Assembly: GCF_000177675.1 (NCBI RefSeq)
Contig: NZ_ADGX01000081.1
Coordinates: 1-38,674, forward strand
Direction of reading: 5' to 3'
Length of the DNA stretch: 38,674 bases
DNA from: Parafrankia sp. EUN1f
Lineage (GTDB): Bacteria > Actinomycetota > Actinomycetes > Frankiales > Frankiaceae
Part shown: positions 7,659 through 32,741 of the stretch, piece after piece
Position numbering within the stretch: the first letter of the stretch is position 1
Layout of the letters: each line of letters starts with the position of its first letter
The notes under the pieces: model-generated
What the model was told of the DNA's origin: nothing
Seen by the model: the letters and a program-made list of their open reading frames with translations, nothing else
The model's database searches: none
Made by a program: the position numbers and the translations under genes

Positions 7659-8069
7659 GTGAAGTACCTGCTGCTCAAGCACTACCGTGGCGGCCCGGCC
7701 CCCACCTGGGACTGGGCGCCGATGGACCAGTGGACGCCGCAGGAGGTCGACGCGCACATCCAGTACATGCGCGACTTCGCGGACCGGCTGAAGGAGTCGG
7801 GCGAGTTCGTCGGTGAGGCGGCGCTGGCACCCGAAGGCGCCTTCGTGCGGTACGACGGTGAGGGGCGTCCGCCGGTGACCGACGGACCGTTCGCCGAGAC
7901 GAAGGATCTCATCGCCGGCTGGATGATCATCGACGTCGAGTCCTGGGATCGTGCGCTCCAGCTGGCCGGGGAGCTCTCCGCTGCTCCCGGGCCGGGCGGG
8001 AAGCCGATCCACGAGTGGCTCGAGGTCCGCCCGTTCCTCACCGAGCCGCCGAAGACGGTCACCGAATGA
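7659..8069 (+). CDS. YCII-related (DGPF) protein of ECF42 module 1
   Basis: A 136-aa YCII-domain protein with the hallmark DGPF at residues 75-78 (VTDGPFAETKDL) and the flanking strand GWMIIDVESWDRAL. DGPF proteins are conserved partners and targets of ECF42 sigma factors; their biochemical role is not established. The GTG start at 7659 follows AGGAGG at 6 bases. The sigma factor gene is 343 bp downstream, an unusually wide gap caused by a dispersed repeat; the second module in this window has the same pair overlapping. Confidence 0.88.
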   Translation: MKYLLLKHYRGGPAPTWDWAPMDQWTPQEVDAHIQYMRDFADRLKESGEFVGEAALAPEGAFVRYDGEGRPPVTDGPFAETKDLIAGWMIIDVESWDRALQLAGELSAAPGPGGKPIHEWLEVRPFLTEPPKTVTE

Positions 8070-8148
8070 TCCTTGTCCATCGTCGATCCTGACCCGCGGT
8101 TTACCTGACCGTCCACCGCCATCGCCTACCACCACCACTGCTGGCCGC

Positions 8149-8253
8149 GAGCAAGAAGTGAGGATTTGGGCTGCTAAAGAAACCAAAATCCTCACTTCTT
8201 GCGGATTGCCAAGTGGCTCTCCGCCCCGTTTGTCGCTATTGGCATGAATTGCT
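8149..8253 (+). repeat. Dispersed hairpin element, copy A
   Basis: Core of about 105 bp shared with 21672-21777 and, inverted, 32556-32662. It opens with a hairpin whose 17-bp arms match perfectly (8151-8167 with 8186-8202; outer arm GCAAGAAGTGAGGATTT), followed by a conserved tail containing GGATTGCCAAGTGG and TATTGGCATGAATTG. Weaker similarity to copy C continues to about 8350 (GATCC-CGGTGG, CCGCCAGGCGG, CCGCCACTTCT). It fills most of the gap between the DGPF and sigma genes. No ORF or transposase is inside. Confidence 0.85.
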
Positions 8254-8412
8254 GGTGCTGTGCGGCGGCGCGGGATCCTCGGTGGGCTGCTGTGCGGCGG
8301 GTGGCGCGGACCGCCAGGCGGAGATCGGGGCGCGGATCCGCCACTTCTCGGATCTTTTTCTATACGCTCGTAGGCCGTTAGATGGAAAAGGTTCGAGGAA
8401 CTTGGTTGCCGG

Positions 8413-9618
8413 GTGAACGAGCAGCTGCTGCGAGAGCTCGTGCCCGCGGTGATCGGTGTCCTCGTCCGGCGCGGAGCGGACTTCGCGTCGGCCGAGGACG
8501 CCGTGCAGGAGGCCCTGATCAGGGCGCTCGGAAGTTGGCCGGACGATCCGCCGCGCGATCCGTTGGCCTGGCTGGTCACGGTCGCCTGGCACCGGTTCCT
8601 CGACGCCGCCCGCGCCGAGGCGTCGCGGCGAGGGCGCGAGCTTGCCGTCGACGCCGAACCACCCGCCGGCCCGGTGCCCGCCGAGGACGACACGCTGCGG
8701 CTCTTCTTCCTGTGCGCGCATCCCACCCTGCCGCCGGCCTCGGCCGTCGCCCTGACGCTGCGCGCGGTCGGTGGCCTGACCACCCAGCAGATCGCGGCGG
8801 CGTACCTCATCCCGGAATCGACCATGGCGCAGCGGATCAGCCGGGCCAAGCGGCGGATCGCCGGGCTGCCGCTCGACCGGCCCGGCGATCTCGCCACCGT
8901 GCTGCGGGTGCTCTACCTGGTCTTCAACGAGGGATACGGCGGCGATGTGGACCTCGCTGCCGAAGCGATCCGGTTGACCCGCCAGCTCGCCGCCCTGACC
9001 ACGACCACGACAACGACAACGACAACGGCCCCGAGCCGGGGCCAGTTCCAGGTCCGGGCGGCCGATCCCGAGGTCGCGGGGCTGCTCGCGCTGATGTTGC
9101 TGCACCACGCGCGCCGGGCGTCGCGCACCGGCCCGGGAGGCCGCCTCGTGCCGCTCGCCGAACAGGACCGATCGCGCTGGGAAACCGGCCTGATCGCCGA
9201 GGGGGTGCGGATCCTGCAGGCCGCGCTGGCCAGCGACCAGCTGGGCGAGTACCAGGCGCAGGCCGCGATCGCCGCCCTGCACGCGGACGCCCCCAGCACC
9301 GCCGAGACGGACTGGGTGCAGATCGTCGAGTGGTACGACGAACTGCTGCGCCTCACCGGCAGCCCGGTGGTGCGGCTCAACCGCGCGGTGGCCGTCGGCG
9401 AGGCCGACGGGCCGCGGGCCGGGCTGGCGGCGCTGGCCGACCTGCACCCGGACCTGCCCCGCTACGCCGCGGTGACGGCCTACCTGCACGAACGGGCCGG
9501 TGACCTGGCCCGCGCCGCCGAGCTGTACGCCGACGCGTCCCGCACCGCCGTCAGCGTGCCGGAGCGCGACCATCTCATCCGCGAGGCCGCCCGGGTACGG
9601 CAACAGCTGCGGCGATGA
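8413..9618 (+). CDS. ECF42-group RNA polymerase sigma factor with C-terminal TPR-like domain (module 1)
   Basis: A 401-aa sigma factor. Sigma-2 lies at about residues 10-75 (DAVQEALIRALGSWP, PLAWLVTVAWHRFLD), sigma-4 at 110-155 (ALTLRAVGGLTTQQIAAAYLIPESTMAQRISRAKRRI), then a DUF6596-like region (VLYLVFNEGYGG) and helical TPR-like repeats. The long C-terminus replaces an anti-sigma factor in this group. A run of ten threonines (196-205, bases 8998-9027) interrupts the linker. The GTG start at 8413 has only weak ribosome-site support. Its paralogue is at 23246-24526. Confidence 0.9.
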   Translation: MNEQLLRELVPAVIGVLVRRGADFASAEDAVQEALIRALGSWPDDPPRDPLAWLVTVAWHRFLDAARAEASRRGRELAVDAEPPAGPVPAEDDTLRLFFLCAHPTLPPASAVALTLRAVGGLTTQQIAAAYLIPESTMAQRISRAKRRIAGLPLDRPGDLATVLRVLYLVFNEGYGGDVDLAAEAIRLTRQLAALTTTTTTTTTTAPSRGQFQVRAADPEVAGLLALMLLHHARRASRTGPGGRLVPLAEQDRSRWETGLIAEGVRILQAALASDQLGEYQAQAAIAALHADAPSTAETDWVQIVEWYDELLRLTGSPVVRLNRAVAVGEADGPRAGLAALADLHPDLPRYAAVTAYLHERAGDLARAAELYADASRTAVSVPERDHLIREAARVRQQLRR

Positions 9619-20350: not shown

Positions 20351-21631
20351 ATGACCAACGGGTGCGACAGGCGCCGGGTCGCGCAGGAGCAGCTGCTCAC
20401 CGGGGTCCGCACCGCCGCCGCCGACGACGGTCGTGCACCTGGCGGTGGCGAGCAGGCGCTCGGCCAGGTGCGCCCCGAGGTACTGGAATCCTGGACACGC
20501 TCCCGCACCTTCGGGGTGGACCCGGAAGCCACCGTCCCGCCCGTCGATCTCGTCGACGACGCGCTGGACGACTACCGGGCGTCGCACCCGCTGGGGCAGG
20601 CGATGCCGGTGGTGCGCGACCTGCTGGTCGAGCATGCCGCGTCCGACGAGATGATCGTCGCGGTGAGTGACGCCGCCGGCATGCTGCTCTGGGTGGAAGG
20701 CGACCCGGCCGCATGCCGCCGGGCCGAGCGGATGCGGTTCGTCGCCGGGGCCCGTTGGGACGAGCGGCACGCCGGCACGAACGCCCCCGGCCTGGCGTTG
20801 GCGCTCGGGGTCGGCATGCGGGTGGTGGCCGCCGAGCACTGGGCCCGTCCCGTGCAGCCGTGGAGCTGCTCGGCGATGCCGGTCCGCGACCCGGTCGGCG
20901 GTGCGCTGCTGGGCGCACTCGACGTGACCGGCGACGAGCGGGCCGCCTCCCCCGGGGCGCTGGCGCTCGTCCGGGCCACCGCCGCCGCGGTGGAACGTGA
21001 GCTGCTGCTGCGGCAGCACCGAGACGGGGGCGTGCGTCGTCCAGTCGAGCAGCCGCTGCGTTTGTCCGTTCTCGACCCGGGTGGGCCGACGCTGTCCCAG
21101 CACGGGCGCACCAGGCGGGTCAGCCTGCGCCATGCGGAGCTGATGCTCCTGCTCGCCGAGCATCCGCAGGGATGCAGCGCCGGCCGGCTCGCCGTCCTGC
21201 TCGACGAGCGGGACCTCGACGAGGTGACGGTCCGCGCCGAGCTCTCGCGGCTACGGCGGGTCCTCGGGCCCGAGGTGCTGCGTTCGCGTCCGTACCGGCT
21301 CGCCCCAGGGGCGCTCACCACCGACGTGGACGACGTGCGGCGGGCGCTGGCCGCCGGCGACCCCGCGGCGGCCATCACCCTGTGGCGCGCACCGTTGCTC
21401 GCGCGCTCCGGCTCCCCGGGGGTCGCCACCGTCCGCCTGCGGATGGCGCAGGAGGTGCGGGCGGCCCTGGAGCGCAACGGCGATCCGCTGTTGCTGCTGC
21501 GCTGGGTCGAGGGCCCGGTCGCCGCGGATGACCTCGCCCTCTGGCGCCGATGCCGGGACCTGCTGCCCGCTGGCCCGGAGCGGGACCGCGCGATCGCCCG
21601 GGTGCGTGTCCTCGACCACGAGGGCCGCTGA
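20351..21631 (+). CDS. AcoR-like GAF-domain transcriptional regulator without an AAA+ domain
   Basis: A 426-aa regulator. The N-terminal part (LESWTRSRTFGVDPE, then a GAF-like domain with VSDAAGMLLWVEGD and RWDERHAGTNAPGLAL) resembles the sensory half of AcoR activators. Instead of a sigma-54 ATPase, the C-terminus has a winged-helix region (LRHAELMLLLAEHPQG, VRAELSRLRRVLGPEVL, RSRPYRL). Such actinobacterial proteins flank ALDH genes and probably sense aldehydes or alcohols. The ATG at 20351 follows GGGGGGAGG. Confidence 0.85.
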   Translation: MTNGCDRRRVAQEQLLTGVRTAAADDGRAPGGGEQALGQVRPEVLESWTRSRTFGVDPEATVPPVDLVDDALDDYRASHPLGQAMPVVRDLLVEHAASDEMIVAVSDAAGMLLWVEGDPAACRRAERMRFVAGARWDERHAGTNAPGLALALGVGMRVVAAEHWARPVQPWSCSAMPVRDPVGGALLGALDVTGDERAASPGALALVRATAAAVERELLLRQHRDGGVRRPVEQPLRLSVLDPGGPTLSQHGRTRRVSLRHAELMLLLAEHPQGCSAGRLAVLLDERDLDEVTVRAELSRLRRVLGPEVLRSRPYRLAPGALTTDVDDVRRALAAGDPAAAITLWRAPLLARSGSPGVATVRLRMAQEVRAALERNGDPLLLLRWVEGPVAADDLALWRRCRDLLPAGPERDRAIARVRVLDHEGR

Positions 21632-21671
21632 GCGACGAACACCGGACGCTTCCGCTGTCGCCGCTGCTTCA

Positions 21672-21777
21672 GAGCAAGAAGTGAGGATTGTGGCTGCTGT
21701 AGCAACCGAAATGCTCACTTCTTGCGGATTGTCAAGTGACTCTATGTTCCTTTCGTTCCTATTGGCGTGAATTGTTG
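21672..21777 (+). repeat. Dispersed hairpin element, copy B
   Basis: Same orientation as copy A. The stem arms GCAAGAAGTGAG (21674-21685) and CTCACTTCTTGC (21714-21725) are perfect for 12 bp, then continue with one mismatch. The inner segment GGCTGCTGTAGCAACC forms a further small hairpin. The conserved tail (GGATTGTCAAGTGACTC, CTATTGGCGTGAATTG) follows. It lies between convergent genes, 40 bp after the regulator stop and just before the HxlR stop. Confidence 0.85.
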
Positions 21778-21804
21778 GCTGGCCGAGATCGCGGTGGTCG
21801 GCTG

Positions 21805-22245
21805 TCAAGGGTGGGCTCGGTTCTGGTCGTAGGTGGCTCGCGCGGCGTCCACCTCGGGCATGTGGGCCTCGGCCCAGTCCTTGAGATGGCGCAGGGTTTC
21901 CAGGAGCGACAGTCCCAGCGGGGTGAGCTCGTAGTCGACGCGGACGGGCACCGACGGGGTCACGGTGCGGGTCAGCATGCCGTCGCGCTCGAGCCCTCGC
22001 AGGGTCTGGGTCAGCATCTTCTGGCTCACCCCGGCGATCCGGACGGACAGCTCGCTGTAGCGCATCCGGCCCTGCAGGCCCAGCGCCACGATCACGAGGC
22101 TCGCCCACTTGTCGCCGATCGTGTCGAGCAGTCGGCGGCTGGGGCAGGACGCGTCGAACACGTCAAACCCCGCCGTCGGCGGTGCTGTCGGCACGGTCGG
22201 CACCGTCGGCACCGTTGTCGGCCTGGCTGCGGTGACGACGTCCAT
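21805..22245 (-). CDS. HxlR-family transcriptional regulator
   Basis: A 146-aa winged-helix protein with the HxlR Cys in DASCPSRRLLDTIGDKWASLVI, recognition helix VSQKMLTQTLRGLERDGM and wing VRVDYELTPLG. The N-terminus has a TVPTVPTVPT run from 9-bp repeats (22187-22213). It is divergent from the MDR oxidoreductase, the arrangement of QorR/YodB-type redox sensors in which the Cys reacts with quinones or diamide; that mechanism is inferred here. Confidence 0.88.
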   Translation of the reverse strand: MDVVTAARPTTVPTVPTVPTAPPTAGFDVFDASCPSRRLLDTIGDKWASLVIVALGLQGRMRYSELSVRIAGVSQKMLTQTLRGLERDGMLTRTVTPSVPVRVDYELTPLGLSLLETLRHLKDWAEAHMPEVDAARATYDQNRAHP

Positions 22246-32215: not shown

Positions 32216-32555
32216 TCAGCTCACCAGTCCTCCGCTGGATAGACAAGAACCTGCTGGTCAGGTCAGCTATTTATAACCAGCAAACACTCGTGATGGTGTT
32301 CGCGAGCGGAGATCTTTCGTTTTTCTATCAGGGGAGTGGTGTCGCTTCTCGATGGCCGTGGAACCGGCTGGATCTGGTATCGGTGCACGACGGCGCGAGT
32401 CGTGTGACCCCGTCGCGCGAGCGGGTTACCGACTCGGAGGCTTGCTCCGGCGGACCGCAAGAAGTGGCGGCTCCAGGGCCACCGATATTGGCCTTGAGTT
32501 CCGTGCTCACCCACCGCCTGGCGATCCACCGGGGATCTCGCGCCGCGCCATGGCA

Positions 32556-32662
32556 CCATCAGTTCATGCTAATAGGGGCAGACGGGGCATAAATCCGCTT
32601 GGTAATCCGCAAGAAGTAAGGATTTCGGTTGCTGTAGCAGCCAAAATCCTCATCTCTTGCTC
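32556..32662 (-). repeat. Dispersed hairpin element, copy C (inverted)
   Basis: Reverse complement matches copies A and B across the whole core. Stem arms are 32609-32625 and 32644-32660; three stem positions are mismatched, but the inner hairpin GGTTGCT/AGCAGCC is fully paired allowing one G-U. The tail reads CCAAGCGG and CTATTAGCATGAACTG on the minus strand. Similarity to copy A continues leftward to about 32440. Confidence 0.85.
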
Positions 32663-32694
32663 GGAAGCAATGAATCCACCCGGGTCGTGATCGG

Positions 32695-32741
32695 CGTCGT
32701 GGTACTCATCAGGGTAGCTACCCTGATGAGTACTCACGACG
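32695..32741. other. 32-bp perfect palindrome within a 23-bp stem
   Basis: The arm GTACTCATCAGGGTAG (32702-32717) is exactly complementary to 32718-32733. Outside it, CGTCGTG (32695-32701) pairs with CACGACG (32735-32741), with one bulged T at 32734. Two related GGCATCCTGAYGGG repeats follow immediately (from 32741). It lies 40 bp after the stop of the minus-strand membrane gene. No T-tract follows, so it may be a terminator, an operator or a mobile-element end. Confidence 0.8.

Follow-up and report, generated by a model that had tools for sequence, protein, structure and literature searches.

The window, a stretch of 38,674 nucleotides representing one contig of the 9.35-Mb genome of Parafrankia sp. 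EUN1f (the host genome, G000), contains three copies of a palindromic repeat, all of which lie outside the genes predicted by codon usage, in keeping with the intergenic position proposed in the initial annotation. Copy 1 (plus strand) is placed in the 343-bp spacer (8070-8412) that separates a YCII-domain gene (7659-8069) from an ECF sigma gene (8413-9618; Sigma70_r2/r4 and DUF6596), both assigned with Pfam, and is composed of a 52-bp imperfect palindrome at 8151-8202, defined by profile match and folding, followed by a conserved tail (GGATTGCCAAG...TATTGGCATGAATTGCTGG) at 8203-8264. Copy 2 (plus strand) is situated between convergent genes with its palindrome at 21674-21725 and its tail at 21726-21787, and copy 3 (minus strand) has its palindrome at 32609-32660 and its tail at 32547-32608, both palindromes being defined in the same way. 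These placements agree with the positions and strands first given for the three copies, 8149-8253 (+), 21672-21777 (+) and 32556-32662 (-). The size of 105 bp first assigned to the element was too small, as the family-profile matches extend further, covering 8112-8377 for copy 1, 21605-21912 for copy 2 (the outer part overlaps the adjoining gene and is doubtful) and 32407-32672 for copy 3. With copy 1 as the BLAST query, copies 2 and 3 are matched at 83% identity (E 2.4e-23). A 343-position profile built from 29 copies matches exactly three places in the window with E-values of 4e-68 to 3e-53, which are inflated because the window's three copies are in the profile seed. The proposed hairpins were borne out by folding, with all six strands of the three copies scoring better than every one of 200 shuffles (z -3.55 to -5.80). 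A separate feature of the window is a perfect 32-bp palindrome, GTACTCATCAGGGTAGCTACCCTGATGAGTAC, at 32702-32733, located ~40 bp from copy 3 and adjoined by two CAGGATGCC repeats, which looks like an operator.

The conserved unit of the family is the 52-bp imperfect palindrome together with a tail of ~60-75 nt. Conservation is strongest in the palindrome, GCAAGAAGTGAGGATTTTGGCTGCT..AGCAACCGAAATCCTCACTTCTTGC, followed by the tail GGATTGCCAAGCGACTC..GCCCCGTTTG..CTATTGGTGTGAATTGCTGGCGC, and a weaker conservation reaches out to ~335 bp, fading outwards. The stem usually carries one T.G and one C.A mismatch, and other subfamilies have the same design with a different stem. The longest copies (e.g. 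on contig C288) have the palindrome arm CGAAGAGTTGAGGATTCTGGTCGTTCC at the start and its inverse GCGGCCAAAATCCTCAACTTTTTC at the end, the arm being present four times per unit; terminal arms at both ends are seen only in these longest copies. Some copies are arranged in tandem ~95 bp apart, and tandem arm sites spaced exactly 95 bp apart occur at five places in G000 (C339 4601/4696, C380 473/568, C186 12397/12492, C353 45493/45588 and C369 24166/24261). A comparison of 60 long copies gives 83% identity for the closest pair and a median of 59%, and with the closest pair only 83% identical no recent burst is seen. Two further copies, L021 and L023 (G000 contigs C266 and C236), are identical with identical flanks and are probably an assembly duplicate; one of the two was omitted from several alignments.

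The host genome holds far more than three copies. The BLAST check of copy 1 against the host genome yields 40 scored matches among 183 candidates, and a covariance model (R1, built from 61 rows with one copy entered twice) recognizes all 95 scored candidates in G000 and likewise all 95 in the congeneric carrier G019, which amounts to at least 95 per genome among the matches listed, possibly including strand duplicates. Within the 35 genomes of the host's taxonomic family R1 finds none among the scored candidates of four other congeners, six matches in G014 and none in the remaining genomes. A core-palindrome pattern allowing up to three mismatches, applied to 393 genomes of the class, identifies 170 sites in G000, 200 in G019 and 5 in G014, with a single match each in G090, G177, G250 and G345, numbers too small to interpret, whereas the other 386 genomes have none; the four other congeners are at 0 for this pattern, and the reversed pattern used as a control gives 0 throughout. 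A hairpin profile run over 400 kb per genome detects 16 copies in G000 and 21 in G019, with 0 in the reversed sequence. Scaled up, these densities correspond to about 370 and 500 copies per genome, the G000 sample being not strictly random because it was taken from long contigs, several of them already known to carry copies. The two carrier genomes are congeneric and probably belong to Parafrankia, the genus being judged from one host protein whose closest named relatives are in Parafrankia colletiae (85%), P. soli (89% over part of the length) and Frankia sp. AgB1.9 (83%), with Pseudofrankia more distant. Exact-pattern searches gave no match in genome contigs outside the near genomes or, with an exact degenerate pattern that makes a narrow test, in viral contigs; plasmids likewise gave none. 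Weak short matches in G001, G020, G022, G023, G026 and G029 were treated as chance, the G001 match alone having been inspected. The initial annotation knew of no named family for the element and it remains unmatched, with no Rfam hit in the window at gathering scores and, at permissive settings, miRNA models only (E 0.13-0.27). Two outcomes named beforehand as refuting the element, a total of three copies or an Rfam match, did not occur.

The exception beyond the two carriers is G014, a 3-Mb genome from another genus of the family, which has five hairpins (L227-L231) with the core GAGGATTNNGGTCG-N6-CGACCNNAATCCTC at the same spacing, two of them exact and three with 2-3 mismatches. None of the five has a visible tail, and each is placed 18-75 nt past the end of an ORF that has a coding-like composition by a rough filter. 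Tailless hairpins behind ORFs fit the core being the older, functional part of the element, although the number is small.

Pairing of the stem is maintained across the copies, with 87.8% of the stem cells paired over 61 rows compared with 32-50% when one arm is slid. In the same rows double-changed paired cells number 65 against 35.5 after shuffling, a value reached in 0 of 500 shuffles, and the covariation score is above all 500 shuffles; there is no excess of pairs changed on both sides (9 versus 8.2 shuffled) or of pair types (30 versus 28.6). Three of the five co-variation measures are thus above the shuffles, and the two failing are those least misled by relatedness, which inflates double-change counts; one copy was entered twice in the alignment. 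RNAalifold on this 61-row alignment did not recover the stem, returning four other pairs at -1.9 kcal/mol. Fitting of the subfamilies gap-free was possible for 165 of 191 copies, with 26 left out; the main subfamily (144 copies) has 222 double-changed pairs compared with a shuffled mean of 133 and maximum of 158, and the second subfamily (21 copies) has 27 compared with 23, no excess. The earlier statement that stem changes are partly compensated therefore holds for the cell counts and the covariation score and fails for the number of pairs and the pair types.

The history of individual copies was followed at 18 sites, made up of the 16 of 24 flank pairs that are syntenic in G019 and two window copies, the copies having been selected because their profile scores were high and their matches long. 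G019 carries a family member at 14 of the 18. The YCII-ECF sigma spacer occupied by copy 1, 343 bp in the host, measures 30 nt in G019, and in four further congeners the two genes are separated by roughly 0-100 nt; because the gene pair is close together in these five congeners, copy 1 represents an insertion acquired by the host lineage. Site 4, with a flank-to-flank gap of 725 nt in G000, 472 nt in G019 and 428 nt in G021, is probably a second such insertion, judged by spacer length. The tail is partly deleted in G019's same copy at sites 1 and 5 and at window copy 2, where the orthologous site keeps the hairpin and the tail is scored as absent. Elements run in opposite directions in G000 and G019 at sites 3, 13 and 23 (L154, L161 and L167), as if by replacement, inversion or a double hit, and a different stem is found at the same place in G019 at sites 9 and 10. 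Short GC-rich tandem repeats directly adjoin the copies at sites 11 and 13 (G000 C375 and C366; L161). No target-site duplication, exact boundary or clean pre-insertion site was seen at the 18 compared sites.

The hairpin and the tail diverge at different rates between the two species. Across seven ortholog pairs the hairpin has 47 differences in 364 sites (13%) and the tail 94 in 349 (27%; p 3.4e-6), with 146 in 696 (21%) for the upstream part and 156 in 668 (23%) for the outer part. The hairpin is the slower in six of the seven pairs, site 11 being the opposite, and at site 1 the species differ by one compensatory A-T to G-C exchange. The pair from window copy 2 was dropped as its hairpin alignment failed, and with it included the figures are 58/394 and 137/411; the tail figure could be inflated by misaligned, partly deleted tails. 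The proposal that the tail is as conserved as the stem is accordingly true among paralogous copies and not among orthologous ones, where the tail changes at about double the rate of the stem, and the claim that both parts matter is half right, as equal constraint on tail and stem fails at orthologous sites. Conservation of the tail among the copies seems to arise because it is part of the spreading unit and not because each copy needs it. Slower change in the hairpin is, from these comparisons, attributable to selection or to conversion between the arms, and arm-to-arm conversion could keep up the palindrome without selection.

Most copies follow stop codons or lie between convergent genes. 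None of 97 hairpins in 63 stretches (1.27 Mb) lies inside a predicted gene; the codon-usage predictions give a coding fraction of 0.74, which is low, so that some regions counted as intergenic may contain missed genes. The 91 hairpins with neighbors on both sides (six were dropped because a neighbor is missing) are distributed as 43 convergent, 40 co-directional and 8 divergent. Counted as distinct regions these become 31, 31 and 5, compared with 62, 271 and 132 in a background of 465 regions, each 150 bp or longer (Fisher p 1.8e-13 for the convergent excess and 1.4e-5 for the divergent deficit), the background including the copy-bearing regions and many of the stretches having been chosen because copies were present. 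Stretches L168-L207 alone contain 15 co-directional, 15 convergent and 3 divergent. In co-directional regions 33 of 40 hairpins have the upstream stop nearer to them than the following start, as counted by eye with tandem copies counted more than once, and the 27 of these 40 with a recognized tail point in the direction of the genes in 16 cases and against it in 11. Stable stem-loops in bacteria generally show the same behind-gene placement in the excerpted text of PMC1590033, so the placement alone is no proof of function, and it can be explained by selection against disrupting promoters.

These observations are in line with the proposal of a MITE- or REP-like element without its own gene, given the hundreds of copies, the avoidance of predicted genes, the derived insertion at copy 1 and the negative Rfam search. 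The reading that we consider probable is a REP/MITE-type non-autonomous intergenic family that multiplied in the ancestry of the two carriers, moved in trans and was retained behind genes. In a first step, shown in part, the non-autonomous repeat would have spread in the two-carrier lineage with occasional insertions since, an enzyme that targets the palindrome arms presumably mobilizing its copies in trans. In a second step a strong, strand-symmetric hairpin would be tolerated or useful behind genes, allowing copies to persist as the tail decays. The copies may have retained a role at 3'-ends; the simplest such roles would be a bidirectional terminator without a U-tract or an mRNA 3'-end stabilizer. 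The U-tract scan covered copy 1 and found no T-run after its stem, the terminator scan giving only another site at 8334-8355. A more specific proposal is that the hairpin would be a mobile bidirectional terminator spreading into gene ends, in which the core and not the tail is selected and the core is older than the Parafrankia expansion, and this we regard as rather unlikely.

The main alternative, to which we give a small although not negligible chance, treats the ~335-bp unit as a dead MITE, a deleted insertion sequence moved by a lost or unrecognized DDE transposase, without function and placed where it is harmless. The palindrome arms found at either end of the longest units, the derived insertion of copy 1, the loss of parts at orthologous sites and the avoidance of coding and divergent regions all agree with such an origin, as do the two co-variation measures that are not above the shuffles. 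Against this alternative no target duplication is seen, no inverted arm pair 0.7-5 kb apart occurs among 88 arm sites inspected by eye (wider pairs, at 6.7 and 7.0 kb, do occur), and no ORF recurs at three or more places in 603 kb around the copies except for frames running through the elements. The change of the hairpin at half the rate of the tail in the same copies also argues against a unit devoid of function. ORF pieces beside the copies on G000 contigs C149 and C371 near 77 kb look like ends of transposase genes.

The initial annotation also raised a structured RNA, and a strand-specific RNA encoded by each copy is a highly improbable reading. The strong folding, the conserved tail on one side and the stem co-variation by three of five measures would suit it, but in 144 copies the G.T mismatches (245) and A.C mismatches (257) are about equally frequent, as would be expected if the palindrome functions as DNA or is transcribed in both directions, and gives no support to an RNA from one strand. 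Its orientation relative to co-directional genes is also mixed (16 same, 11 opposite), the tail is lost or diverged at orthologous sites and no Rfam model matches at gathering scores.

In proteobacteria, palindromic repeats of the dispersed kind are well documented; RU-1 is the same repeat as ERIC. A REP proper moved by a RAYT (Y1 transposase) is the least credible reading. The family is palindromic, intergenic, present in hundreds of copies and sometimes in tandem ~95 bp apart, all of which would suit it, but Y1_Tnp (PF01797) has 0 matches in the host genome compared with matches in 5 of 14 control genomes, and the 52-bp palindrome is longer than the 20-40 bp of REPs given in PMC3733652. The genome-wide transposase search was for the Y1 family, and as the host genome has no Y1 transposase and the 88 arm sites include no inverted pair at 0.7-5 kb, the suggested link to IS200/IS605 elements is not supported; an ancestral RAYT, since lost, may have been the mover.

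The preferred reading, a non-autonomous REP/MITE-type family, shares features with several known systems. In common with REP, BIME and REPIN sequences (PMC3733652; see also PMC3116915 and PMC2817692), it comprises high-copy intergenic palindromes without their own genes, sometimes in tandem, and differs in the length of the palindrome, the conserved tail and a host genome without a Y1 transposase. It resembles MITEs in its short non-coding dispersed units, the inverted arm at both ends of the longest copies and the derived insertion, whereas the Parafrankia family has an extra internal palindrome copy, and no target duplication, parent insertion sequence or recent copies were seen for it. The ERIC/RU repeats of enterobacteria, at ~100-170 bp, are likewise intergenic and present in many copies according to extracts of PMC2759123, but they belong to another host phylum, and the likeness is drawn from size, location and copy number. 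Bidirectional terminators between convergent genes, as presented in part of PMC1590033, are stable hairpins soon after stop codons that prefer convergent over divergent regions, whereas the Parafrankia hairpins are mutually homologous and copy 1 has no U-tract after the stem. Among the open-access matches listed, with subscription papers mostly outside them, no paper describes a family of this sort from Frankia or Parafrankia. A survey of Frankia insertion sequences (PMC2770080, in its accessible part) deals with IS elements and their inverted repeats, the main text of the GTAG/CGTC REP survey (PMC3733652) does not contain Frankia, Streptomyces or actinobacter-, and the accessible text of PMC4447401 points to a supplementary table of palindromic repeats in four Frankia strains.

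The repeat adds a new family to the dispersed palindromic repeats already known, without being a system of a new kind. About 400 such hairpins placed behind genes of symbiotic actinobacteria would have consequences for transcript ends, annotation and typing, and the close relatives with and without the family form a natural experiment. Were the hairpin a mobile terminator, transcription units would be rewired genome-wide, for example by copy 1 between the YCII-domain and ECF sigma genes, and the separation of this regulator gene pair by a copy is directly testable.
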